Of a DNA stretch of 64,000 nt, positions 7,914 to 51,474 are shown piece by piece. The position numbers were made by a program, and so were the translations under genes. The notes beneath the pieces were generated by a model. The model had not been told where the DNA came from. It ran no database searches and saw only the letters and a program-made list of their open reading frames with translations. Within the stretch, counting starts at the first letter, position 1; every line of letters begins with the position of its first letter. The stretch covers positions 1 through 64,000 of the IMG/VR virus record IMGVR_UViG_3300032731_001452; one strand, given 5' to 3'. This DNA comes from a virus.

Positions 7914-8138
7914 CTAGTAGGAACCCTTCTTGAAGCGTCGTACGATTTCGTCGAACTGATAGTACTCGCTTAGAAGCCACTCGTTCCACAAATCATCTCC
8001 GTCAGGACATTCTTCATGAAGATGGACGGTGAACCGCGAACGACCACGGCTGAGTTTTTTGCTCGTAACCAAACACCCCTTCACCAACGAAGCGAATGCC
8101 GCACAACCAAGATCTATGGTGACGTACGTGTCGCTCAT
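7914..8138 (-). CDS. Hypothetical protein of the neck region
   Basis: 74 aa, acidic middle (EECPDGDDLWNEWLLSEYYQFDEIV) and short basic C-terminus. It lies 2 nt from both neighbours in the head-tail operon and so is probably translated with them. No family recognised. Confidence 0.7.
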   Translation of the reverse strand: MSDTYVTIDLGCAAFASLVKGCLVTSKKLSRGRSRFTVHLHEECPDGDDLWNEWLLSEYYQFDEIVRRFKKGSY

Positions 8139-8140
8139 GG

Positions 8141-8938
8141 CTAACAGTCCACCTTGGCGCCGCGGATACCACGCTGAACTTCCGTGTTCTGTACAGACTT
8201 CTTGGTCGTCTCGAACCGCGTCATTTTAACCCGCTTACTCAATCCAACCGGAGGAATTCTCATGGTTGTGATCTTGTTCGCGGCTTCTACAGCTTGATTG
8301 TAAACTTTTTCAATCTCTTTCGACGAGTCCATCACACCAGCGCGGAGAAAATCTCGACCGGGCGTAATCTTCGTAAGTCCAATTCGTGGCGCTACTAAAT
8401 TGTTTGCGCGAAGCATTCGAATCCATGGCTTATGCCGTTCGTCGTACGTTTGCGTGTAACCTTTAATAATCCTCGCGGCGCGTTGTTGAAGCGCTGGGTT
8501 ACCTTTGATCGTTACGTCCACGATTTGTAAAGGTCGCCCCCTAGAATCACTACTATGCTTGACTCGCGGTGATTCCGCCTTAACGCGAATGGATCTAGAG
8601 AGTGTTCCGGCGCCCTGGAACGGTGCCTGGCTTACCCGTCCACCACGCATTACTCGCATAGACTGTGTTACACCGCTACCGGCTTTAGCGATTTCGACGG
8701 ATTTAGAGCGACCCGTTTCTAACACTTTTTGAACGGATCTGCGAACGATGTTCTCTATCTCACTTTTTCGCTTATCGAACTCTTTTTCAGCCGTCGAATT
8801 CCATAACGCAATCGCCGCCATCGTGTCCCTGACTCCGGTGATGTCGATATGCAGACGGTTATGGACGTTACGGCCGTACTTGGACGCAATCGTACGCCCG
8901 CCGCGGTTTGGTCGTCGAATAGGAATAGCTGACGCCAT
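8141..8938 (-). CDS. Neck/tail-completion protein, HK97 gp10-like
   Basis: 265 aa, strongly basic. The N-terminal helix (KEFDKRKSEIENIVRRSVQKVLE) followed by TLSRSIRVKAESPRV resembles HK97 gp10-type tail-completion proteins, where a long helix is followed by 'G.LR.SI' and a beta hairpin. It overlaps the previous gene by 1 nt (TAATG). It is located between the head-tail connector and tail genes, as gp10 is. The assignment is tentative. Confidence 0.55.
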   Translation of the reverse strand: MASAIPIRRPNRGGRTIASKYGRNVHNRLHIDITGVRDTMAAIALWNSTAEKEFDKRKSEIENIVRRSVQKVLETGRSKSVEIAKAGSGVTQSMRVMRGGRVSQAPFQGAGTLSRSIRVKAESPRVKHSSDSRGRPLQIVDVTIKGNPALQQRAARIIKGYTQTYDERHKPWIRMLRANNLVAPRIGLTKITPGRDFLRAGVMDSSKEIEKVYNQAVEAANKITTMRIPPVGLSKRVKMTRFETTKKSVQNTEVQRGIRGAKVDC

Positions 8939-22237: not shown

Positions 22238-22243
22238 ACCGTG

Positions 22244-22271
22244 ATTGTATCTAACTTTACGTTTATGTCAA
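22244..22271 (-). promoter_or_regulatory. Strong sigma70-like promoter heading the leftward virion operon
   Basis: On the minus strand: TTGACA, 16-nt spacer, TACAAT. The ATG of the CPBP gene begins 6 nt after the -10, so transcription should start at or next to the A of ATG and no ribosome binding site can exist. Confidence 0.75.
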
Positions 22272-22348
22272 GGTTTATTCTACAGCTACATAACCGCTCA
22301 GGTTTAAAACACCTTGCGGATAACCGCCAAACCCGCATACCATAAGGC

Positions 22349-24863: not shown

Positions 24864-25616
24864 GTGGCAAAGAGGGTCAAGTTGAATCACATCGATCTGT
24901 ACAAGTTACGAATCGTGCCCCTGGACGCCAAGACGCTAACGGTCATGCGGGCGTGTCCGGAAGAGGCTAAACGTTGGACGGATCCTGACGTCGAACGCAC
25001 GCTCTACGCATTCGCTATGTGCCAGATCCCAAAAAGCTACTGGTATCATAAAATTCAAACGTTGCCGTGTGGGTCTAATCAGTTCACGAATGACGTGGAA
25101 AGTTACGTTGAACATCTAGACGAGTTTATTAATAAGCAACATGTAGGATTGCTTATTTCAGGTAGTCCTGGTGTAGGTAAGACGTTTCTTGCGGCTCATA
25201 TCGCCAAACAAGCTGTCCAACAAAATTTTTCGGTTTGGTTTTACGACAACAACAACTTCACAAAAGACGTCATGGACGCCATGAGAGACAAAAGCGTAGA
25301 GCGTCGCGTCGATACCATCACCAACAAAGCTGAAGTGCTTATCATCGACAACGTTATGAATGGTTGGACTGGAAAAATCCACCCTCTTATGTGTAACAAG
25401 TTAGAATCTATTTTAGAAGCTCGTCGGGGGCGCGGCGTAACCATCTTCACTACGCTAATTCAAGAGGCAACTAACAAAGAGGAAAACCAAAAACCAATGC
25501 CGCCAAGGTTGTGGTCCCTCGTTCAAGAAGCAATGCACGTTATAAAAATCAAGGGCGTTCAAGACATGCGCCCACTCAAGGCGAAAAACGTCTTCAAGCA
25601 AGTGGTGGGCTCGTGA
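24864..25616 (+). CDS. DnaC/IstB-like AAA+ helicase loader
   Basis: 250 aa from GTG 24864. Walker A ISGSPGVGKTFLA, Walker B EVLIIDNVMN. Before them, IPKSYWYHKIQTL is the 'ip..y..a.l' segment that precedes the ATPase in DnaC-type loaders. It should open the DnaB ring onto the phage origin. The gene ends in GTGA, where the helicase starts, so the two are translated as a pair. Confidence 0.9.
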   Translation: MAKRVKLNHIDLYKLRIVPLDAKTLTVMRACPEEAKRWTDPDVERTLYAFAMCQIPKSYWYHKIQTLPCGSNQFTNDVESYVEHLDEFINKQHVGLLISGSPGVGKTFLAAHIAKQAVQQNFSVWFYDNNNFTKDVMDAMRDKSVERRVDTITNKAEVLIIDNVMNGWTGKIHPLMCNKLESILEARRGRGVTIFTTLIQEATNKEENQKPMPPRLWSLVQEAMHVIKIKGVQDMRPLKAKNVFKQVVGS

Positions 25617-26983
25617 GCACGCCTACGCCCGACGAAATCCTGATTGGCAGCGCTCTCAAAAACGCTCCCGTTCACGACTATCTCGACGAAGGCGGTCTTC
25701 CTACAGACGCGTTTGATGAACCAACCCCACACCGTATCTGGGGTTTGTTTCGTGACTACTTTCAAAAACATGGCGACATTCCAGATTTAGATCTCTTACA
25801 AGATCTGGCAACTCAAGAAATCCCGGATCACGCCGACGATATTATCGCGTACGCGCGACGTGCGCGTAACGCCGTCGAAGATCGGAATATCGACGGTTCC
25901 AAGATCGATTACTACATCCGAAGACTTCTTGACACCCACGAAGACATCGACCTTCGACGCAAGCTCGGATCTGCCATTGACATCCTACGGCAAGAAGGAC
26001 CCACGGCGTGTCTGGATTACTTGCAAGGTGCCACAACGGTCGAAGCGGCGATTACCGACACCGTCAAAACCACAGACCTCGTCGAAGACTTTGAAGAACG
26101 AGAAAAAGACGTTCTTGATCGCCGCGAAAATCCGCAAGAAAGTAACGCCATCCCGCTTGGGATAGAGCCGATCGACCGCGTGCTCAACGGTGGTCTTCTA
26201 GGCGGCGAGTTAATGGTATTCGCCGCTATTCCGGGTGGGGGAAAATCCGTCAGCCTCATGGACGTAGCTATTTCGTCCGCCGAGCAGGGTCGAAAAGTTC
26301 ATTTCTTCACGATTGAAATGGGCTTGGTTCAGACGGCGTTTCGTGGTTATTCACGTATGTCGGGTGTTTCAACGAAACACTTCCGCAACGCCGAAAATAT
26401 CACCGATCAAGATCTGGAAATGTGGCGCGCTTCCGTTAAGAAGCTACGGCAAGTCGCTGGCGCTGGCGTTAAAATTACGTCCATTCCAGAGCACGCTTCC
26501 GTCCGCTTTATGCGCGCTGAACTAGCGAGGCTTGAACGGAAAGAAGGTTGGAAACCAGACTTGATTTTGGTCGACTACGCCGGAATCATGAGGCCTTCAG
26601 GTGACGGTCAGTACAAAAACGAATCGGACTGGGCGTACGTCGGCCAGAACGTCAAAGACCTAAAGGTGTGGGCTATCAGTGCTGACATTCCCGTCATCTC
26701 AGCTGTACAGCTGTTACCAGACGCTATCGGGAAAGACTCGCTGACCTTCAAAGATCTAGGTCTGTCAAAAATCCTTATCGCGGCTACTTGCGATGTAATC
26801 GTCGCTTTCATTCCTTTGTCTCCTGAAGAACTCGAGTTTGTTGAAATACTGACTCTGCGCCTACAATGGTTGAAAGCGCGAGAAGGAACCGAGGACGAAA
26901 ACGGTAAGCCCGTGTTGTTTACCGATCTAACGCCTAACTTCAGTGAAATCAGAATCCACGCTCCATCCGGTGCGGTAGCTTAG
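25613..26983 (+). CDS. DnaB-like replicative helicase
   Basis: 456 aa from GTG 25613, which overlaps the loader stop (GTGA). Residues 1-100 resemble the DnaB N-terminal domain (EILIGSALKN, HRIWGLFRDYF). The RecA-type motor has Walker A IPGGGKSVS (206-212), FFTIEMGLVQTAFR, and Walker B DLILVDYAGIM. Length is near the 450-470 aa norm. It unwinds DNA at phage forks and recruits primase; no primase gene is visible in this window. Confidence 0.92.
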   Translation: MSTPTPDEILIGSALKNAPVHDYLDEGGLPTDAFDEPTPHRIWGLFRDYFQKHGDIPDLDLLQDLATQEIPDHADDIIAYARRARNAVEDRNIDGSKIDYYIRRLLDTHEDIDLRRKLGSAIDILRQEGPTACLDYLQGATTVEAAITDTVKTTDLVEDFEEREKDVLDRRENPQESNAIPLGIEPIDRVLNGGLLGGELMVFAAIPGGGKSVSLMDVAISSAEQGRKVHFFTIEMGLVQTAFRGYSRMSGVSTKHFRNAENITDQDLEMWRASVKKLRQVAGAGVKITSIPEHASVRFMRAELARLERKEGWKPDLILVDYAGIMRPSGDGQYKNESDWAYVGQNVKDLKVWAISADIPVISAVQLLPDAIGKDSLTFKDLGLSKILIAATCDVIVAFIPLSPEELEFVEILTLRLQWLKAREGTEDENGKPVLFTDLTPNFSEIRIHAPSGAVA

Positions 26984-26994
26984 TAGAGGAAAAA

Positions 26995-27840
26995 ATGAGC
27001 GCATCTCCAATTTTTCGTTGGGTCGGTGGGAAACGGCAACTATTGCGGAAGCTAGAACCATTCATTCCGGACGACTTCAACGTCTACTACGAACCGTTCT
27101 TCGGTGGAGGCGCGTTGTTTTTCCACCTGGAACCCCGTCAAGCTATCGTGAACGACGCGAATCGCGCACTCATGAATGCGTACCACCAACTCTCGCAAGC
27201 GCCGAATGAGTTGCTTAACCGCGTAGCTGCGACGCTGGAATCATTTACGAGCGAACAGTACTACAGCGCACGTGAACGCTACAACGATCTACGGTCGCAG
27301 CTTTATGGAACCTTCCCCGTAAACAGTTTCGACGCTGTCGAGTTAGCTTACTTGTTTATTTACCTAAACAAAACAAACTTCAATGGTTTGTGGCGGGAAA
27401 ACAAAAGCGGGGAGTATAACGCTCCAATTGGAAAGTTTGCTACAACACCAACCGTCAAGATTGCTAATACCATTGAAGCCGCTAGAATTCTTGATGGAAC
27501 CGTAATGATGTCGTGCGATTTCGAGGAAACGACTCGAGAAGCTTCTACTGGAGACCTGGTTTATTTTGACCCGCCTTACGACAAGGAAACGCCTGACGCC
27601 TTTAGCTCGTTTACGGCTGGTGGATTTTCGTCTAAAGACCAGTGTCGACTTTCTTTTGTTATGCACGAATTAGCTGATAAAGGCGTTTACGTTATTCTGT
27701 CAAATAGCGACACGTCTTTGATTCGTTCGTTGTATGATGATATGTTCATTCACGAAGTTCACGAACGACGCTCAATTAATTCAGACACTGAAAAACGCGC
27801 TGGTATAAAAACCCTCATTATTACTAACTTCGAGAACTAA
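26995..27840 (+). CDS. Dam-type DNA adenine-N6 methyltransferase
   Basis: 281 aa. Class D12 motifs: FRWVGGKRQLL (AdoMet motif X/I), YYEPFFGGGALFF, and catalytic VYFDPPYDKET (DPPY). Length matches Dam (about 270-280 aa), so GATC is the likely target. Methylation may guard phage DNA from host enzymes or, given the DnaA-like gene next door, time replication starts. Site GAGGAAAAA precedes the ATG. Confidence 0.95.
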   Translation: MSASPIFRWVGGKRQLLRKLEPFIPDDFNVYYEPFFGGGALFFHLEPRQAIVNDANRALMNAYHQLSQAPNELLNRVAATLESFTSEQYYSARERYNDLRSQLYGTFPVNSFDAVELAYLFIYLNKTNFNGLWRENKSGEYNAPIGKFATTPTVKIANTIEAARILDGTVMMSCDFEETTREASTGDLVYFDPPYDKETPDAFSSFTAGGFSSKDQCRLSFVMHELADKGVYVILSNSDTSLIRSLYDDMFIHEVHERRSINSDTEKRAGIKTLIITNFEN

Positions 27841-27841
27841 C

Positions 27842-28330
27842 ATGGTAATCTTCCCCGACAATCACGATTGCATGTCAAAAAGTACCATTCTTCAATCTCG
27901 CGATTTGGGGGCGCATACCAAAAAAAGACTCCGTATCTGTAAGGTATGCAGTAGGCTATTTTCTACGATTGAAACTTTTAAGGGAATGTCTACAGTTTCA
28001 GATGAACGGACTCAGATTGTAGTAAAAATAGACAAGATAATTCTCACGGTTTGCGAAGCGTGCGAAATAAATAGAAAAGATTTACTCGGAAAAAAACGTA
28101 ACCAACCGTTAGCTTTGATTCGACAGGTAGCTATGTATCTATGTCATGAAAGTGGATACAATTACGCTGAAATCGGCGAAGTATTTGATAGACATTACTC
28201 AACCGTTATAGGTGGGTGCAAAAGCGTCGAAGAAAGAAAAGACAGCAACCAAGCAATTAAACGTTTTTTGTTACTAGTAAAATTCTATCACGATAATGAC
28301 GATGAGCAACAAATTGCTGAAATTGATTAG
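27842..28330 (+). CDS. NrdR-like zinc module joined to a DnaA domain IV
   Basis: 162 aa. Residues 18-48 follow the second half of the NrdR zinc ribbon: QSRDLGAHTKKRLRICKVCS then RLFSTIET, compare NrdR 'DSR...(R)RRreC..C..RFTTyE'. Metal ligands may be C33-x2-C36 and C71-x2-C74. Residues 81-135 match DnaA domain IV, the double-stranded box-binding part: ALIRQVAMYLCHE and FDRHYSTVIGGC, compare DnaA 'aRqiAMYL.re' and 'fGgrdHtTV'. The AAA+ domain of DnaA and the ATP-cone of NrdR are both absent. A small origin-binding protein is likely. It begins 1 nt after the dam stop. Confidence 0.8.
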   Translation: MVIFPDNHDCMSKSTILQSRDLGAHTKKRLRICKVCSRLFSTIETFKGMSTVSDERTQIVVKIDKIILTVCEACEINRKDLLGKKRNQPLALIRQVAMYLCHESGYNYAEIGEVFDRHYSTVIGGCKSVEERKDSNQAIKRFLLLVKFYHDNDDEQQIAEID

Positions 28331-28495
28331 CTATTTTACTAAAAAGTCACCGTCCCGATTAGCCCCTCGAGTCCACGGCGGCTTTACCTCCGATTCTTTC
28401 GACGGCGTCTTCGAGACGTTTCGCCCACCTTTATAAGGCGTTTCTCCAAGATCTTCTGGGCGTTGACCCTTTTTCTTCTTAGCGTTTTCCGCCAT
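28331..28495 (-). CDS. Small basic hypothetical protein
   Basis: 54 aa, starting MAENAKKKKGQRPEDLGETP and ending DGDFLVK. A textbook ribosome site (GGAGGAAACG) precedes the ATG, so I believe it is expressed. It is convergent with the NrdR/DnaA-like gene. Lys/Gly/Pro-rich and probably disordered. No family recognised. Confidence 0.7.
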   Translation of the reverse strand: MAENAKKKKGQRPEDLGETPYKGGRNVSKTPSKESEVKPPWTRGANRDGDFLVK

Positions 28496-28633
28496 CGTTT
28501 CCTCCAGTTGTCCACGTAAATCCTAAGAACTATGTTAGTTACTTCATTTTTATGATGCAACCGAAATCGATCCGACGGTATCTTAGATTAATGGAAATGT
28601 GCAACAACGCACCTAAAATCAAGGAGATTTGAT

Positions 28634-29332
28634 ATGGGAACCCCACGCGAACAAGGTGATCTTCCTGTCGGTATGATCGGCGCGGCCGATGATACGATGT
28701 TTGTTGGTTCGCCGCACCGAAGTCACGGATACATGTACTTCAGCGGCGTCGTCGTCCAGGACGAGTTCGTCACCATCGGCGGTCGCGTCTACCAGTTCAC
28801 CGCAACTGGCGTTGTAACGGTCGCGACTTACGTGGCGGTTGACGTCGCTGCCGGTCTCACCGCTGCCATCGCTAGCGCCGCACTCGTGGCCGCCATCAAT
28901 GGCGACACTTACGCTGGCGTAACGGCCGGTCTGATGACTGGTGACACCGTTTCTCTCGTCGGTGATGACGAAACCAACATGGCTCTCGCCGAGGCGACCA
29001 CCAACGTGGACCTCAGTGCAGCGCTCATGACCAACGGCGCGGTGGATACCCAGAAGGTACTCGCCGAAGATCGTTACACGATGACTACGCAGGATCTCGC
29101 TGTCCTGGCCGTTCCTGGCGAAGTGGTCATCGGGTCCGCTACTTTCGTCGGCACCCCGCACCTGCGCGGTCTGATCATCATGGACATCAACGGCGATCTG
29201 AAGCCCGTCACCGCGACTGATGTCGCCGCCTACTGGGAGCTGGTCAGCGGCCACCTGTATCGACTGGTTGTCACGGACAACAACACGATCTTCGTGCTTG
29301 GCGACACCATCGACTGGATCGGCATCGGTTAA
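28634..29332 (+). CDS. Putative capsid decoration/virion surface protein
   Basis: 232 aa, Ala/Val/Thr/Gly-rich beta protein with no charged clusters. It has a very strong site (AAGGAGATTTGAT), biased GC-ending codons like the capsid gene, and its own strong terminator, all pointing to high expression. It stands alone on the plus strand. Such traits fit a head decoration or other abundant virion protein, but no family is recognised. Confidence 0.7.
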   Translation: MGTPREQGDLPVGMIGAADDTMFVGSPHRSHGYMYFSGVVVQDEFVTIGGRVYQFTATGVVTVATYVAVDVAAGLTAAIASAALVAAINGDTYAGVTAGLMTGDTVSLVGDDETNMALAEATTNVDLSAALMTNGAVDTQKVLAEDRYTMTTQDLAVLAVPGEVVIGSATFVGTPHLRGLIIMDINGDLKPVTATDVAAYWELVSGHLYRLVVTDNNTIFVLGDTIDWIGIG

Positions 29333-36261: not shown

Positions 36262-37329
36262 ATGACAACTGAAAACAAGCCTAAACAAATCGTAATCATC
36301 GGTTGCCCTCGATCTGGAACCAGCCTGTTGCAGGTACTGTTTGCGTACTGCTTCAAAAACTGCTGGATGCCACCGGAATTCGAACAACAGCCGTCCAACT
36401 ACTTCTGGACCAGAACGTTCCCCACGCTCGATCCAAAACCAGAAGCTATCATCTGGAAACGCCCCGAGATGCCGTGGCGGAGCCAAGAAAAATTCGACAA
36501 GCTGGTATCCGAAGGTGCACACGTCATCGGTCTCGCCCGACACCCCGCCTCCATGCTGACTAGCCAACAGAAGGGTAAGCCGTATTGGGACGAACTGGCA
36601 TTTGGAAAAGACCGTAAAACCGCCCTTGAACGATGGCAAGCCATGTCCACGTACATGATGCGGTTCGCTCAGGGTATGATCCCCAACTTCACTTTGATAC
36701 GGTTTGAGGATCTTCTGGCAAACCCGCTCAACGTACAGCGCGTCTTGAGCCGGCAGCTGGGGCTAGAATCACTATTCCCGTTCGACGAGCACCACCTCCA
36801 CGTACCGGCAGACAACGTCAATGTACACGCGATGAACGGCCTACGACCTCTAGATCCCAAACGCGCTGGTCAGCTCAGTGATGAAGACCTGCGCGAGCAA
36901 GGGTTCGAAATCCCCAGCACCATCCGAATCATGGCTCGCGGACTCGGATACGACTGTGGTCCACTGCACGAACTACCGAACGACGTCAAAATCAACAACG
37001 TTGCGTTACAGCCTTACGCTTTCGGTTGCGGCAAACTCTCGTCCAACTGGGAGTTTCATACACCCAACGACAAAGAGGGTCAGCTCGACTTGACGGCCAT
37101 GCTGAACACGGTGCTGGCAACAACAATCATGGAAAACGCCGGGGAGTCATTCAAGGTCGAAGGGCCGTGCATCCTACCGGGGCATGACCACGCGATGGTG
37201 TACCACGGACGTGGAAGCGCGCCGCTGATTGTTGGTAAGTGTGAGGAGTCGGGTGATTACGTCATGCTGCAGGCGGGGGGAAACCAGCTCGCCAAAATCA
37301 AGAGCTTGCCGGCTCCCCCCGAAGACTAG
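36262..37329 (+). CDS. PAPS-dependent sulfotransferase
   Basis: 355 aa. The 5'-phosphosulfate loop IVIIGCPRSGTSLLQ (residues 11-25) and the 3'-phosphate motif VIGLARHPASMLTS (about 88-101) are clear, followed by the RFEDLLANP segment typical of bacterial sulfotransferases. Residues 1-235 form the catalytic fold; the last 110 are an extra domain I do not recognise. It is the only plus-strand gene in the fibre block. It may sulfate host glycans or phage tail parts; this is inference. Confidence 0.88.
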   Translation: MTTENKPKQIVIIGCPRSGTSLLQVLFAYCFKNCWMPPEFEQQPSNYFWTRTFPTLDPKPEAIIWKRPEMPWRSQEKFDKLVSEGAHVIGLARHPASMLTSQQKGKPYWDELAFGKDRKTALERWQAMSTYMMRFAQGMIPNFTLIRFEDLLANPLNVQRVLSRQLGLESLFPFDEHHLHVPADNVNVHAMNGLRPLDPKRAGQLSDEDLREQGFEIPSTIRIMARGLGYDCGPLHELPNDVKINNVALQPYAFGCGKLSSNWEFHTPNDKEGQLDLTAMLNTVLATTIMENAGESFKVEGPCILPGHDHAMVYHGRGSAPLIVGKCEESGDYVMLQAGGNQLAKIKSLPAPPED

Positions 37330-42146: not shown

Positions 42147-44447
42147 CTAGCTATCTTGCAACTTATCCATGATGGTTTCGCGAAGAGACTTAACGTCGTC
42201 GGGGTGTTCGCGAAGATACTGGATGGTAGCCTCGCGACCGTTACCAATCCGATCCCCACCGTAACTATGCCAGTTACCGCTCTTCTCAATGAGATCAAAC
42301 TCAAGAGCTAAATCAAGCGTCTCACAAAGCTGATCGATGCCGCGACCGAAGATAAGATCAACCTCAGCTAGACCAAACGGCGGGGCGAGCTTGTTTTTGA
42401 CCACGCGTAACTTCAGTCGATTACCGATTCGAGTCTCACCCTTCTTGATGCCACCTAAGATACGAACGTCAATTCGAACCGACGAATAAAAACGAAGCGC
42501 CTTCCCGCCGCTGGTCGTCTCGGGATTTCCAAAACCACCCGTTCCGATCTTGAGTCGTGTTTGGTTAATGAAAATCACCATCGTTTTCGTCGTTCGCGTG
42601 TTAGCCACGAGCTTACGTAGTGCCTGACTCATCAGCCGGGCCTGTAGCCCTGGTAGGCTATCTCCCATGTCACCGGCTAATTCGGCTTTTGGAGTCAACG
42701 CTGATACCGAATCAACAACGATGATGTCAATTGCGCCGGATCGAACAAGAGTGTCGACAATCTCCAACGCTTGCTCGCCGTAATCCGGTTGGCTGATTAG
42801 CATCTCTTCGACGTTAACGCCCACGCCTTTCGCGAGCGAAGGATCGAGAGCTTGTTCGGCGTCGATAAAAGCAGCAATACCGCCCTGCTTTTGAACCTCT
42901 GCAATTGTGTGAAGTGCGAGGGTGGTATTGTGCGTCACGAATCCGTTAGCGTTAAGCGATGCGGTTTGCTCCATCGCGAAGTCAAACGTCGGTTCGGGCT
43001 CGTTCTCCGTTACGCTTTCAACCCGATCGTAGTAATACCAACGCTTACGAATCTCCGCTAATCTAGCTAAGATGATTGGATCGCCAATCTCTTTGAAAGC
43101 CTCCGAAATCAATTCAAGACGGTTGTACGTAACGAGCGCGCGTGGGGACGGCGCCATATAACAATCCATGAGGACGTTAAGCTCGCGGTTAGTCTCGGCG
43201 GAATCGTACAAATCTCGTAAAAGACCCCCTAAGCAAGGAATGGAATCATGGTTTGTTGAACCACCGTCTCCGTGTAATCGCAAAAGTTCGTCATGTTTCT
43301 TCGCTCGGGATGAAGATCTAGTTCCCACCACTTGAATGAATTTACGAGCTGCATCACCAGCCATCGTTAACTGCCAATAATTATTATTGGGGTACTCCGC
43401 AACATGTTTATCGCGCAGTAAACCAATGATACCGAATCGTAGTTGGAGTAAGAGCTTTACGTCATCCAATAATTCGCGGCTAGCCGACACGGTTTCAATA
43501 CACATCTTACTCGGGTGGATAAAACACTCACAATCAAAATACCCACGAAGTACCTCAAGAAGCGCGGCGTCATTGAGTCGACGAACTCGAGAGCCGACGA
43601 TTTTATCTGGGCTATTACAAGGTTCCCACCCCCAAGATTCGTAAAATTTCGCAGCCGCTTCTACGCTGTTGAAGTGATAATTTATCGACGCGGTGTTACT
43701 TCCGCTCGGATAAACTTTTGGCTCCACACCGAAAATCGAAGACCCTACTCGTGCAATAAACTCCTTGATATCCGGATCGTCATTTGTAAGCCCGAGTCGA
43801 ACACGATTGAAATGACCGTCCGCGAGGCTTAATCCAGCAAAATAAGCCTCGTCCGCATTACAAGCCATCATAAATTCGTGATTACGAACAATCTCACGAT
43901 CGCTCACGAGGTAATCACCAACCTCAAGTTGTTTAACTTGCTTCCATACCCAAAAACCATTCTTGCTCATAACAAGTTGCGGCTGATTAGCGGTTGGACG
44001 AATGTGAGCACCGGAGAACGAACGGATGGTAAAAGTGGGTTTACGGTTGTTGTGAGTGAAATGCGTCGTTTCTTCGATTTCACCGTTTCGGTTGTACAAA
44101 GGAAATTCCGACGCTGTCGTTCGATTGGTACAGGTTGCTTTCAAACCCTGCATTTTGAATATTTCACCGATAGTCAACAAACCATATGGAGTTCCAATTC
44201 GGGTGTCCGCGGGTAGACACTTACCGCTTGATTCTGGGCCAAATATCTCGATTACACGACCACGCGGAAACCCACCAATATGTAACTCGTGGTCAAGCTT
44301 CATTGAGCCGGTGGTTACGACGTCAACGTCCATGGGCTTATCGCCCATTTTCATAATCGCGCCCTTGCCGTACAGCTTCTCGATATCCTTCAACGCTTGT
44401 TCGTAACCAAACCCAACCGGCTTACTTTCTTTCTTTTTCTTTGCCAC
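42147..44447 (-). CDS. recA: RecA recombinase interrupted by an intein
   Basis: 766 aa precursor. Residues 1-76 and 508-766 together give a 335-aa RecA: Walker A GPESSGK then TTLALH, Walker [12 protein letters not shown]2 region [15 protein letters not shown]. After splicing it would form filaments on single-stranded DNA for repair and recombination-driven replication. The intein splits the P-loop exactly between Lys76 and Thr508. The gene starts 25 nt inside the preceding membrane-protein gene. The RecA lacks the long acidic C-tail of bacterial RecA (ends MDKLQDS). Confidence 0.96.
42927..44219 (-). mobile_element. Intein in RecA P-loop, LAGLIDADG type
   Basis: 431 aa, residues 77-507. Block A begins [19 protein letters not shown]; block B is near [14 protein letters not shown] (with a Thr/His-type block lacking the usual T-x-x-H order); the end is NGFVTHN followed by Thr. 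Cys1 and His-Asn at the end are present; the +1 residue is Thr. Endonuclease blocks: [12 protein letters not shown] (good) and [12 protein letters not shown] (Asp then Glu in place of D-A-D-G), so homing activity is plausible but weakened. Confidence 0.93.
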
Positions 44448-44927: not shown

Positions 44928-44952
44928 AAAAGTTTGCGGCTTGCAAACTTTT
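44928..44952 (-). terminator. Dispersed hairpin repeat, copy 4
   Basis: Exact copy. It starts with the last base of the recQ stop codon and ends before the promoter of the next gene, a terminator-promoter pair. The bases after it on the minus strand (GGTTTTGT) are shared with copy 5. Confidence 0.8.
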
Positions 44953-47894
44953 CAACTTCGACAAATATCGCACGTTCCGCACGTCCAGTCCGCCGGTTTG
45001 GATACATCACCGAAGTAGTCGAGAATCTGCTTTCGACGACACTTCGGTGTTTCGCAGAAGTCGATGATTTGCTGGACAAGCAGCTTAGCCATCCGACGTC
45101 GCTTGTCGATCTCAACCCAATCCATGGCGTCGTCGATGTCTTTCACTTCGATGAGCTTCACGCCACCGCTACGTTGCGGTGGCTTATACTCGATCGCCAC
45201 GTTATTGAGGCTCCGCAAAGCCGCGGAGACGTGCTTCTTCTCCATCTCGAGCGCCTTCGCCATGTCAATGGTAGACACCTCAAACCACACGTGCTTTACG
45301 ACACGCATTTCTTGCAGGTACTCAAGTACTTCCGCGGCTCGACCGCGGAACTTCTTCTTGGGTTCGATATGCGCCACTTCGCCGATATCGTTGGCGCGGA
45401 ACTTGCGAACCACACCAGCCTTGAGCATGAAGTTCCAAACAGCGCCGATGTGGGCGTCTTGAATCCATTCGCCGATTTCAGCGGCAAAAGCACCCTGCGA
45501 AACGAACAGCTCGCCGCTAGGAATGTTACTGAGCCGTCGAATCGTATGTTCGTAGACAGCTCGGATAACGCCGTCAGGCGGCCACGACATTGCTACGAAG
45601 AAATCCTGAAGCGAACGGTCACCCGGTCGATACAGCAACGCTACGCGAGAAGGCTCGCCGTCACGACCGGCACGACCAATCTCTTGGTAGTAAGCCTCAA
45701 CGGAACCCGGCATTTGCATATGCGCGATACCGCGGATATTGGATTTATCGACGCCCATCCCAAACGCGTTCGTGGCCACGATGAGCTGCGCTTCATCATT
45801 CATGAAAGCGTCTTGTACCGCCGTGCGTTTCTGCGCGGTCATTCCGCCGTGGTACGGTTTTGCCTTGAAGCCTGAACTACACAAAACGTCGGCGGTTTCT
45901 TCAACTTGCGAACGAGTTCCGCAGTACACAATCATCGAACCTTCGACGTTGTCGACGAACTCAAAGAGGGCGTCCAACTTCTGCGGTCCGTAAGTTTTGA
46001 TTATGTCGATCTCGAGGTTGGGCCGATCGAATCCATGAACGAGTACGTTGGCGTTCTTCATCTCGAGCTGTTCCGCGATATCTTCACGAACCACCGCGGT
46101 CGCTGTTGCGGTAACGGCGAGACAAGTGGGGTTACCAAGCTGCTTTCGAACGTTAGCTAACTGCAAATACTTCGGCCTGAAGTCGTGACCCCACTTACTG
46201 ATACAATGAGATTCGTCGATAGCTAACAGCGACACCTCAACGTCCAACTTACGCATGAACGTAGCCGTCAAACCTTCAGGTGCAATGAACAACGTCTTGA
46301 TTCTACCCTCGTTTACGTTGACGATGGTAGCTTCTCGCGTGGCGTCGTTCATGGTGCTGTTGTAAGCTGACGCTGGAATGTTCAACTTCAACAAACCATC
46401 AACTTGGTCTTTCATGAGGCTGATGAGTGGGCTGATAACGATCGTGAGACCTGGAAGCATGAGTGAGGGGATCTGGTACGTCAGAGAGTTATGTAAAACA
46501 AACTCATCAGCAACAAAACTAGCCTTAAATCCATTGTTTTGACTTTCGATAACAACGTCAAAAGTTTCTTTTTCTTCTACTGGTCCAAGATATTTTATCT
46601 CATCCCAGAAAATATCATTCTTGGATAATAAATGACATTCGAAACCTTCAATGCGACCACTTCTTTTAGCAAACATCTCGCGACTCATTCGGCGAGAATT
46701 TTTAAGATAGAAGGAACTGTCGAATACGTACGTCTTACTAAGCTTAACGAGACGCCTATCTCTATCCAACAAGTCCCAGTAGGAATAAGGAACGACATCG
46801 ACGTTGGTGTTGGACTCGCTACTCTCCAACTTTCCCCACAACGCTCGGAAAGAATGAAATTTCTTACCAACTAACCACGGTTGGATAAGTTCGTTAAAGA
46901 TTGCCAGGTCACCATGACCCGAAATAGACAAGATCCAACTATCTCTAACGCCGCCTTGATACTTAGCGAGTTTGTATCGAAAACGAGACAAAATTCCGCA
47001 TCGTAAAAACAAGTGTTGTAGTTGTTTGATTAACGCCTTAGAAGCCGATGTATATGCTACCGAATGCTCCTCAATCCACCCACCACCTGAAATTACTCTA
47101 CCTAAAAATCTACAAACCTGATCGGTAGACGTAAGAAACAATTGGCTAGGAACCACCCTGCTTGGCGAATGAACGCCTAATAATCCGTACTTTTTCAACA
47201 ACAAATTCAAAGGGTTGCTACTAGCTCCAGCTTTTCCGTCTCGTCTACCCGGACGGGTGGTTGCGGATAGCTGCATTGAGCGTCCATTATACCATGGCGT
47301 ACACCCTAAACTCGTAGTTAGGCAGCTACACAAATCCAGCAAGTCTTGATCTGCTTTGGTGTAATTAGGCGTTTGGCTGTAACGACTAGAACCATCGCAT
47401 AGCATCAATGCGATTATGTCTAATTCAACTTCTGGAATGAGTTGCGAACCATTCAGGTCAAACGAACGAGGCGTGGCTATAAGCTGACCCTCAACCAAAT
47501 CTCGAACGGTTTGTTCGCCTCGGCCTGTAAATACTCGATGCTCCAAGGAAAGCCAAGTTTTCCTCCCGGAGCGTAGCCTAATCCACTTACCTTTCTTAAC
47601 GCCACTAAGGATTACCTCCAAGGGCTTCACAATTCTTTGATATCCGCATTGATCGTGCGACACAACTTCAAACGGAATCCCAGCTTCCCATCGCCTATAC
47701 AACTCTCTGCCTGACACCACTTCGCCAGTGGATAACGGAACCTGAGCGTCGAGATGAACGCACTTTCCCGCGCCGGTTGGCGTTACAAATAACGTATCTC
47801 TACCAGAAAGAATCGACTCAATCGTTTCAAGCTGACCGTCACGGAATGACGAGAAACCAAACCACTTCTCTAGAACTTCGATAGGATCGTTCAT
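44952..47894 (-). CDS. recQ: RecQ-family helicase interrupted by an intein
   Basis: 980 aa precursor from ATG 47894 (site AAGGCGG); a GTG two codons earlier is less likely. Mature helicase of about 555 aa: FGFSSFRDGQLETIESIL (motif 0), P-loop FVTPTGAGK then SLTYQIP, DEAH-box form LLAIDESHCISKWGHDFRP, motif VI QEIGRAGRDG, and a zinc-binding part (CETPKCRRKQILDYFGD, CGTCDIC). It unwinds DNA 3'-5' in repair and fork restart. The neighbour is recA, also intein-split. Confidence 0.96.
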   Translation of the reverse strand: MNDPIEVLEKWFGFSSFRDGQLETIESILSGRDTLFVTPTGAGKCVHLDAQVPLSTGEVVSGRELYRRWEAGIPFEVVSHDQCGYQRIVKPLEVILSGVKKGKWIRLRSGRKTWLSLEHRVFTGRGEQTVRDLVEGQLIATPRSFDLNGSQLIPEVELDIIALMLCDGSSRYSQTPNYTKADQDLLDLCSCLTTSLGCTPWYNGRSMQLSATTRPGRRDGKAGASSNPLNLLLKKYGLLGVHSPSRVVPSQLFLTSTDQVCRFLGRVISGGGWIEEHSVAYTSASKALIKQLQHLFLRCGILSRFRYKLAKYQGGVRDSWILSISGHGDLAIFNELIQPWLVGKKFHSFRALWGKLESSESNTNVDVVPYSYWDLLDRDRRLVKLSKTYVFDSSFYLKNSRRMSREMFAKRSGRIEGFECHLLSKNDIFWDEIKYLGPVEEKETFDVVIESQNNGFKASFVADEFVLHNSLTYQIPSLMLPGLTIVISPLISLMKDQVDGLLKLNIPASAYNSTMNDATREATIVNVNEGRIKTLFIAPEGLTATFMRKLDVEVSLLAIDESHCISKWGHDFRPKYLQLANVRKQLGNPTCLAVTATATAVVREDIAEQLEMKNANVLVHGFDRPNLEIDIIKTYGPQKLDALFEFVDNVEGSMIVYCGTRSQVEETADVLCSSGFKAKPYHGGMTAQKRTAVQDAFMNDEAQLIVATNAFGMGVDKSNIRGIAHMQMPGSVEAYYQEIGRAGRDGEPSRVALLYRPGDRSLQDFFVAMSWPPDGVIRAVYEHTIRRLSNIPSGELFVSQGAFAAEIGEWIQDAHIGAVWNFMLKAGVVRKFRANDIGEVAHIEPKKKFRGRAAEVLEYLQEMRVVKHVWFEVSTIDMAKALEMEKKHVSAALRSLNNVAIEYKPPQRSGGVKLIEVKDIDDAMDWVEIDKRRRMAKLLVQQIIDFCETPKCRRKQILDYFGDVSKPADWTCGTCDICRS
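46488..47762 (-). mobile_element. Intein in RecQ P-loop, degenerate LAGLIDADG
   Basis: 425 aa between P-loop Lys and Ser. Starts CVHLDAQVPLSTGEVVSGRE, has block B-like SLEHRVFTG, and ends FVADEFVLHN followed by Ser. Cys1, the HN end and Ser+1 are all intact, so splicing should work. Endonuclease blocks: IIALMLCDGSS (partly normal) and FLGRVISGGGWI, where the catalytic Asp is Gly, so cutting is probably lost. Confidence 0.93.
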
Positions 47895-47914
47895 GAACAC
47901 CGCCTTCGAGGTGA

Positions 47915-50238: not shown

Positions 50239-51474
50239 CTACTCTGGGAGAAGGTGCGCCCAGTGCCACTCCTTGTCGGCGAAAACAGCTTTGGCATACT
50301 CAACGATTTCGCTGTACTCCATAGCTTGAAGCGTTTCCATGTACTTGGCGCGCGTAACTACCGGATCTTCCGCCCCCATCTCGTAGTAGTACCCTAACAC
50401 CCCGGCGTACGTCGCTACGTTTTCTTGGCTACGCGCTATGCTCGTGAGCATCGTTTCGCGCGAGATTACGAACCGATCTTCCGTAATCAGGTTTTCGAAA
50501 TCTTCCAAGATGCTTTTGATTTCAGCTTCCAGTTCTTCCATTTGATCGGGCGCAATACCCGCTTCGATGCACTTCGCGTTGTAGATCGGGTCGTTGAGAT
50601 GATAGGCGTACAAGCCGTAACAACTCATCCCCTTTTCCTTGCGAATTCGCTCAAACAGAAGCGCCGAGCTACCGCCGCCCAGCATATTAGTGACGACGTC
50701 GTCATGGACCCACTTCGCGCTATCGAATCGCTCTGCGTCCTGGAACGCCAGGAGACGACCTTCTTGAAGGTTGGGGCGTGACTTCCAACGCGAACCAATC
50801 TCAGGGCTTAACGGCGCCGCTTCCAGTTCCGCCAAAGCCTCCTTGGAATTCTCGAGGGTGGCATCCGGCATCTCTCTGAATAGCTCAGCAAAGAACGAGG
50901 GGTCGTCTTCATCCACGTCGCCAACCGCCAAGATGTACACGTTCGGCTTGCCGTACCAACGCTTACGGAAATCATCTAGAGACGCTCTATCAAATGACTT
51001 GATGCTTTCTTCGGTTCCGATAACCGAATGCATTAACGAACCGAAAACGTCTTCTGCGGTAGTTCCCCAGAAATCACCGCGAACGTTATCTAGCCCGCGA
51101 CGATATTCCGATAGGATTACATCCTTTTCCTTCAACCATTCAGCTTCCGGAATCGAAGCGTTAAGGAACATGTCAGCCAAAATTTTGGCGGCTTCTTGCC
51201 AGTTTTCATTGCGCGCGTCTACCCAGTAAAACGTATGTTGATAATTCGTTCCGGCGTTGTTGGTAGCGCCGAGTCTAGCGGTATCACGGTCGATTTCCAT
51301 ATCGTTCCGCGAAGGTGTTCCCTTAAACATCATATGCTCGAGCGCGTGCGCTAAGCCGTATTCTTCTAGACGCTCGTGCGCGGAACCTACTTTCACGCGA
51401 ACTGAAACATTGGTGAAAGGTGCGTGATGCTTGTGCAACAGAATGGGTAAACCGTCAACGTTGTGAATTTTCAT
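50239..51474 (-). CDS. M16-family zinc metallopeptidase
   Basis: 411 aa, the size of a bacterial processing-peptidase-type M16 subunit. The inverted zinc motif HALEH (His43, Glu46, His47) sits in GLAHALEHMMFKGTPSR, with the distant Glu ligand likely in VILSEYRRGLDN. Later blocks (WYGKPNVYILAVGDVDE, MLGGGSSALLFERIRKEKG, CYGLYAYHL) are the family's second domain. M16 enzymes degrade small peptides in a closed chamber. Such genes are rare in phages. Promoter GCTACAAT at 51494, site GGAGTACCC. Confidence 0.93.
   Translation of the reverse strand: MKIHNVDGLPILLHKHHAPFTNVSVRVKVGSAHERLEEYGLAHALEHMMFKGTPSRNDMEIDRDTARLGATNNAGTNYQHTFYWVDARNENWQEAAKILADMFLNASIPEAEWLKEKDVILSEYRRGLDNVRGDFWGTTAEDVFGSLMHSVIGTEESIKSFDRASLDDFRKRWYGKPNVYILAVGDVDEDDPSFFAELFREMPDATLENSKEALAELEAAPLSPEIGSRWKSRPNLQEGRLLAFQDAERFDSAKWVHDDVVTNMLGGGSSALLFERIRKEKGMSCYGLYAYHLNDPIYNAKCIEAGIAPDQMEELEAEIKSILEDFENLITEDRFVISRETMLTSIARSQENVATYAGVLGYYYEMGAEDPVVTRAKYMETLQAMEYSEIVEYAKAVFADKEWHWAHLLPE

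Follow-up and report, generated by a model that had tools for sequence, protein, structure and literature searches.

What does a tailed phage do with a 162-residue protein in which the DNA-binding domain of DnaA appears to be joined to an NrdR-like zinc segment? The gene lies in a 69,217-base virus record carrying tail sheath, portal, head protease, and terminase genes, and "the window" here means the whole stretch of 64,000 nucleotides of that record that was analyzed. An earlier note, made by reading the sequence alone, had placed the open reading frame at 27842-28330, called it a chimera of an NrdR-like segment and DnaA domain IV lacking both the ATP-cone and the AAA+ part, and proposed that it is either a minimal initiator serving a DnaC/DnaB pair or a protein that represses dnaA or nrd genes of the host. 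The coordinates are confirmed, and so is the chimera, its DnaA_C part at full length and its likeness to NrdR real but partial. We also agree on the missing parts: there is no Pfam match in the protein to an ATP-cone, to an AAA+ domain, or to DnaA domain I, so that it does not qualify as a full initiator (DnaA). The gene, its parts, and its upstream neighbors are listed in Table 1.

Table 1. The DnaA-IV gene, its predicted modules, and the genes upstream of it (positions in the window).
Feature	Position	Strand	Content or basis
Whole gene	27842-28330	+	162 aa: NrdR-like ribbon, linker, DnaA domain IV, C-terminal helix
Putative NrdR-type zinc ribbon, residues 7-46 (approximate)	27860-27979	+	Sub-threshold PF22811, local profile, motif, AF2 strands
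DnaA domain IV (DnaA-box-binding helix-turn-helix fold), residues 63-129	28028-28228	+	PF08299, PDB 1j1v, structure
Base-reading N-terminus of recognition helix, R117-H118-Y119-S120-T121	28190-28204	+	Alignment to E. coli DnaA
C-terminal helix, residues 137-158	28250-28315	+	AF2 model
DnaC/IstB-like AAA+ helicase loader	24864-25616	+	PF01695 E 8.8e-12; PF00308 Bac_DnaA ATPase E 3.2e-7; phrog_50, phrog_3277 DnaC-like loader
DnaB-like replicative helicase	25613-26983	+	PF03796 E 8.6e-20; phrog_19 E 2.4e-53; GTG start at 25613 inferred from the relative L001
D12-class (Dam-like) N6-adenine methyltransferase, directly upstream	26995-27840	+	PF02086 E 1.6e-49

Domain composition of the 162-residue protein

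From its sequence we read the protein as a DnaA domain IV with a degenerate NrdR-type zinc ribbon and no nucleotide-binding engine, with strong confidence for the C-terminal part and moderate confidence for the N-terminal part; as its parts imply, it is most likely a sequence-specific DNA binder. The DnaA family PF08299 (Bac_DnaA_C/DnaA_C) is matched over profile positions 1-69 of 69 with 72.5 bits (E 2.9e-20), against a curated cut-off of 31.5 bits that the match exceeds in a genome search as well. The absence of such a match, which the earlier note had named as grounds for giving up the idea, was thus not what we found, although the domain occupies residues 63-129 and not the 80-140 suggested there. 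PDB entry 1j1v is matched by sequence (E 3.4e-9), and the AlphaFold2 (AF2) model, with pLDDT of 81-95 across most of the region and <50 beyond residue 152, superposes on the DNA-bound domain IV of E. coli and M. tuberculosis DnaA (1j1v and 3pvp) with Z scores of 16.0 and 16.6 and an rmsd of 1.2-1.4 over 92-94 residues, at 21-34% identity.

Base-specific contacts of DnaA are made by R399, residue 423, and residues at 432-435 and 438-439 (PMC5043019, PMC7561715). DNA binding is probably retained in the phage protein, because alignment to E. coli DnaA shows K397, R399, R407, and Q408 kept as K84, R86, R94, and Q95. The loop R432-D433-H434-T435-T436 has become R117-H118-Y119-S120-T121, and of the base-reading set R399, D433, H434, and T435 the first is kept (R86) and the other three are H118, Y119, and S120, which is not the set for canonical DnaA-box reading. 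The R-H-Y-S-T loop is identical in a relative described below, and since the same substitutions occur there it is natural to infer that DNA specificity has changed. These residues also bear on whether the protein could compete with host DnaA at host DnaA boxes (e.g., TTATCCACA; in oriC or the dnaA promoter) and block host replication. In the 1j1v and 3pvp crystal structures domain IV needs no other part of DnaA to bind a DnaA box, and the equivalents of R399, R407, and Q408 are in place; however, the box-reading D433, H434, and T435 are H, Y, and S in both viruses, and the gene belongs to a replication and packaging cluster, not to a group of small host-takeover genes, so we consider such competition improbable.

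For residues 13-44 the best zinc family is the NrdR ribbon PF22811, at 14.1 bits and below its cut-off of 27.2 (E 0.047 against all of Pfam, 5.6e-4 in a six-frame search of the genome). The second knuckle, CKVCSRLFSTIE, is intact, with C33-x2-C36 followed by F-S-T-I-E; the first is degenerate, N7-H8-D9-C10 replacing C-P-x-C in this protein and in its relative. The N-terminus carries the motif C-x2-C-x3-F-x-T-x-E after a basic cluster, and S-R-D and the basic cluster accompany the motif at NrdR-like spacing. A search of 14 whole bacterial genomes, both strands included, turns up 19 copies of this motif: each genome has one in its nrdR gene, 14 in all, and the five others correspond to a background of ~0.007 per 69 kb; the motif can be taken as nearly diagnostic of NrdR. 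A local profile built from 14 NrdR proteins scores 11.8 and 12.9 bits for the two phage proteins, against a maximum of 8.4 in 5000 shuffles of the N-terminus, and hhalign against NrdR gives 67%, where 100 column shuffles give at most 4%. The full-length AF2 model has three strands here (14-23, 26-33, and 39-45), and NrdR chains align to residues 7-47 at 25-32% identity with Z of 4.2-4.5, tied with unrelated rows.

The N-terminus might instead owe nothing to NrdR and be an unrelated single zinc knuckle or a chance likeness, which would make the protein an ordinary stand-alone phage DnaA-IV protein with a variable N-terminus; N-termini do vary widely among such proteins. Besides the sub-threshold PF22811 score, Ogr_Delta follows only 1 bit behind at 13.1 bits, and a PDB profile search with the N-terminus places two unrelated zinc proteins slightly above NrdR, all of them weak. 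Folded in isolation the N-terminus reaches a pLDDT of 58, too low for a search, and has no clear match: NrdR comes up at Z 2.3, level with unrelated entries. Against this, a motif nearly specific to NrdR stands at the right spacing from S-R-D and the basic cluster, shuffles never reach the profile score, and a true phage NrdR ribbon also cross-matches Ogr_Delta. We therefore think it likely, with some room for doubt, that the N-terminus is a degenerate NrdR-type ribbon, and that a separate origin is unlikely but deserves to be taken seriously; this weighing concerns the origin of the N-terminus and is independent of our judgment of the functional readings. The protein does not belong to NrdR itself, as its ribbon is under the cut-off, it has three cysteines and possibly H8 in place of four cysteine ligands, and the ATP-cone is absent. 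Any zinc that the protein binds would be coordinated by C10, C33, C36, and perhaps H8.

Conservation and distribution of the fusion

Another IMG/VR contig, L001, encodes at 8001-8489 an 84%-identical protein of equal length and arrangement. The order of loader, DnaB, Dam, and DnaA-IV genes is the same there; the three proteins compared are 84-88% identical between the two viruses, and the terminase and helicase are each 88% identical to those of the phage. For the whole gene pN is 0.101 and pS 0.853, with synonymous sites saturated; the values are 0.123 and 0.906 for the N-terminal part and 0.089 and 0.823 for the C-terminal part. Judged by these values both modules are under purifying selection, because pS is saturated while pN is ~0.10 in each half. 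Directly after the DnaA-IV gene, L001 carries a TnpB/OrfB_IS605 gene (Cas12f1-like_TNB, OrfB_IS605; L001:8495-9712, minus strand), which looks like a recent insertion since it is absent from the window.

The earlier note had called for a search of phage genomes for the same fusion, which yields this one relative and no other true case in viral contigs. Pattern scans of the viral contigs with three spacing ranges returned L001 only; these scans demand an R-[QH]-x2-M-Y core, which divergent fusions could escape. Matches on L056, L058, and L123-L126 arose by chance, being out of frame, interrupted by stops, or in other proteins. A scan of genome contigs yielded only DnaA and AAA-less DnaA-like proteins; among these L088, with a seeming match to residues 8-130, has no ribbon. 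A helicase search for further related phages again recovered L001 alone. Of seven "phage" DnaA matches that we inspected, six turned out to be DnaA of the bacterial type, AAA+ part included, on unverified contigs.

Gene neighborhood, candidate targets, and role

Upstream and in the same direction lie, in order, an HTH protein in the small-terminase position, the large terminase, the loader, the DnaB-like helicase, and the methyltransferase; Pfam and phrog profiles bear out the placement after loader, helicase, and Dam given in the earlier note, and the 162-codon frame starts one base past the Dam stop codon. The cluster is not purely a replication operon, because it also includes terminase genes. 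GATC is slightly over-represented in the window (320 against 288 expected, sd 15), and the phage carries the Dam-like gene. Elsewhere in the window are RecA and RecQ-like helicase genes (42147-44447 and 44952-47900, both on the minus strand), both with LAGLIDADG-domain inteins, an M16 (insulinase-type) peptidase gene (50239-51474, minus strand), and, among the structural genes and on the strand opposite to its neighbors, a gene for a sulfotransferase family protein (36262-37329, plus strand).

The reading we tentatively favor, without giving it even chances, is that the protein binds phage-specific sites and marks the phage origin, with the adjacent loader supplying the AAA+ function; it is favored because of the gene order. 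Domain IV would recognize sites that have departed from the canonical DnaA box, and the ribbon would dimerize the protein or provide a second DNA contact. The bound protein would then mark the origin, and the DnaC/IstB-like loader would contribute in trans what DnaA's AAA+ part does on the same chain, delivering the DnaB helicase. In NrdR the ribbon serves dimerization and forms part of the DNA-binding portion. The smallest unit of NrdR is a dimer formed through the zinc ribbons (PMC12051234), and if the ribbon acts here as it does there, the phage protein is probably dimeric as well. The full-length DnaA_C match, the kept DNA-contact residues, the gene order shared with L001, purifying selection, and the replication or recombination genes near other phage DnaA-IV genes all support origin marking; the shared cluster with terminase genes speaks against it, as does the lack of an origin signature (DnaA boxes, iterons, or GC skew) within the searches made.

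Those searches gave the following results. DnaA boxes (TTWTNCACA) are not enriched, with one against 3.66 expected, and TTATNCACA with one mismatch has 27 sites, the same number as the reversed control. The minimal initiator for a DnaC/DnaB pair is plausible by gene order, but no binding sites for it emerged from these searches. There is no GC-skew switch near 28 kb, and neither iterons nor repeated operators were found in the neighboring spacers, nor tandem repeats near the gene. The repeats at 13.3-13.5 kb were rejected as an origin, since they are inside a coding region. The DnaA-IV gene, at 37.6% GC, is clearly more AT-rich than its neighbors in the window, and no other 100 bp there are as rich in AT as 28251-28350 (28% GC), which overlaps its 3′ end; we discarded this segment as an unwinding element or origin, as the equivalent site in L001 is not AT-rich and is followed by the TnpB gene.

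Almost as likely is a role in transcription: the protein would be a dimeric phage regulator of zinc-ribbon/helix-turn-helix type, acting at phage promoters and switching gene sets, with candidate sites such as the divergent spacer 22238-22348 and the conserved spacer 28496-28633. Both modules come from proteins with a regulatory role (NrdR always, DnaA also), the spacers flanking the cluster are conserved with L001, and regulation accounts nearly as well for the failure to find an origin-like sequence; co-transcription with terminase genes is equally odd for a pure replication factor and for a regulator. However, the gene comes directly after the loader and helicase and is not placed next to a divergent regulator promoter, and no repeated operator was found in those two spacers. 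A small basic protein encoded at 28331-28495 on the minus strand is, like the spacer that follows it, conserved in L001, and that spacer may form a hairpin, GTGCAACaACGCACC, ahead of the gene at 28634.

Control of ribonucleotide reductase genes in the manner of NrdR seems to us very improbable. The ribbon does resemble that of NrdR, but the ATP-cone is absent and the first knuckle lost. In the phage record no site lies within three mismatches of the NrdR-box consensus, and the ribonucleotide reductase families PF02867 and PF00268 have no match. On DNA, NrdR is an ATP/dATP-loaded tetramer on paired boxes (PMC12051234). Repression of dnaA or nrd genes in the host and the DnaA or NrdR targets proposed in the earlier note are thus unsupported: the box-reading loop is changed, DnaA boxes are not enriched, and the ATP-cone, the first knuckle, NrdR boxes, and ribonucleotide reductase genes are all missing.

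A bolder version of origin marking, which we rate as unlikely, is a split DnaA in which an origin-reading protein and the AAA+ loader are encoded in one cluster, with a changed box and with an NrdR-derived ribbon as a dimerizer replacing the oligomerization domains of DnaA; if true, two proteins jointly do DnaA's single-chain job. DnaC-type loaders can generally be expected to match the DnaA ATPase profile, and the PF00308 match of the loader is by itself no evidence for a split DnaA.

Phages often carry a lone DnaA domain IV, whose function seems not to have been tested; the library searched yielded no relevant paper on such proteins or on an NrdR/DnaA fusion. The present case is informative since a loader and helicase adjoin the gene and the base-reading loop is naturally altered, and its binding sites would show whether orphan domain IV proteins serve as origin markers in phages or act on transcription. 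Should the ribbon be an NrdR-derived dimerizer, two unrelated DNA-binding modules would have merged into a new regulator.

Comparison with known systems

Being phage-encoded, small, and endowed with domain IV but no AAA+ part, the protein falls among the stand-alone phage DnaA-IV proteins, which are numerous and annotated as "DnaA-like domain-containing protein"; those of Rhizobium phages RHph_N28_2 and RHph_TM3_3_3, Microcystis phage Mae-JY35, and Phage C72C1 are likewise small and free of AAA+. Nine that we inspected have no zinc-ribbon N-terminus, and most have a loop of the R/K-D-H-[ST]-T type in contrast to the R-H-Y-S-T of the 162-residue protein. Their genes too are often near replication or recombination genes, such as a replisome organizer in MW202613 and Sak and SSB in C72C1. 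The AAA+-less DnaA-like proteins of Alphaproteobacteria (NCBIfam NF004686-NF004688, PRK06030) also consist of domain IV alone, but they have no ribbon and an R-D-R-[ST]-T loop, and our protein scores far under the cut-offs of their models (34 against 181 bits).

DnaA itself (TIGR00362) shares the domain IV fold over 92-94 residues at a Z of 16, whereas domains I-III are missing and base-reading residues substituted in the phage protein. NrdR (PF22811 plus ATP-cone) has the second knuckle, F-x-T-x-E, the S-R motif, and the basic cluster at similar spacing; its CPxC first knuckle is N-H-D-C here, and its ATP-cone is replaced by DnaA domain IV. Synechococcus phage S-SRP02 (QTP86384.1; L021:2986-3585) likewise has, in a phage replication region, an NrdR ribbon separated from the ATP-cone, although that ribbon is intact (39.3 bits) and joined to another domain. 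The lone phage DnaA domain IV is thus already known, and what is new, from two related viruses, is its combination with an NrdR-like ribbon and an altered reading loop.
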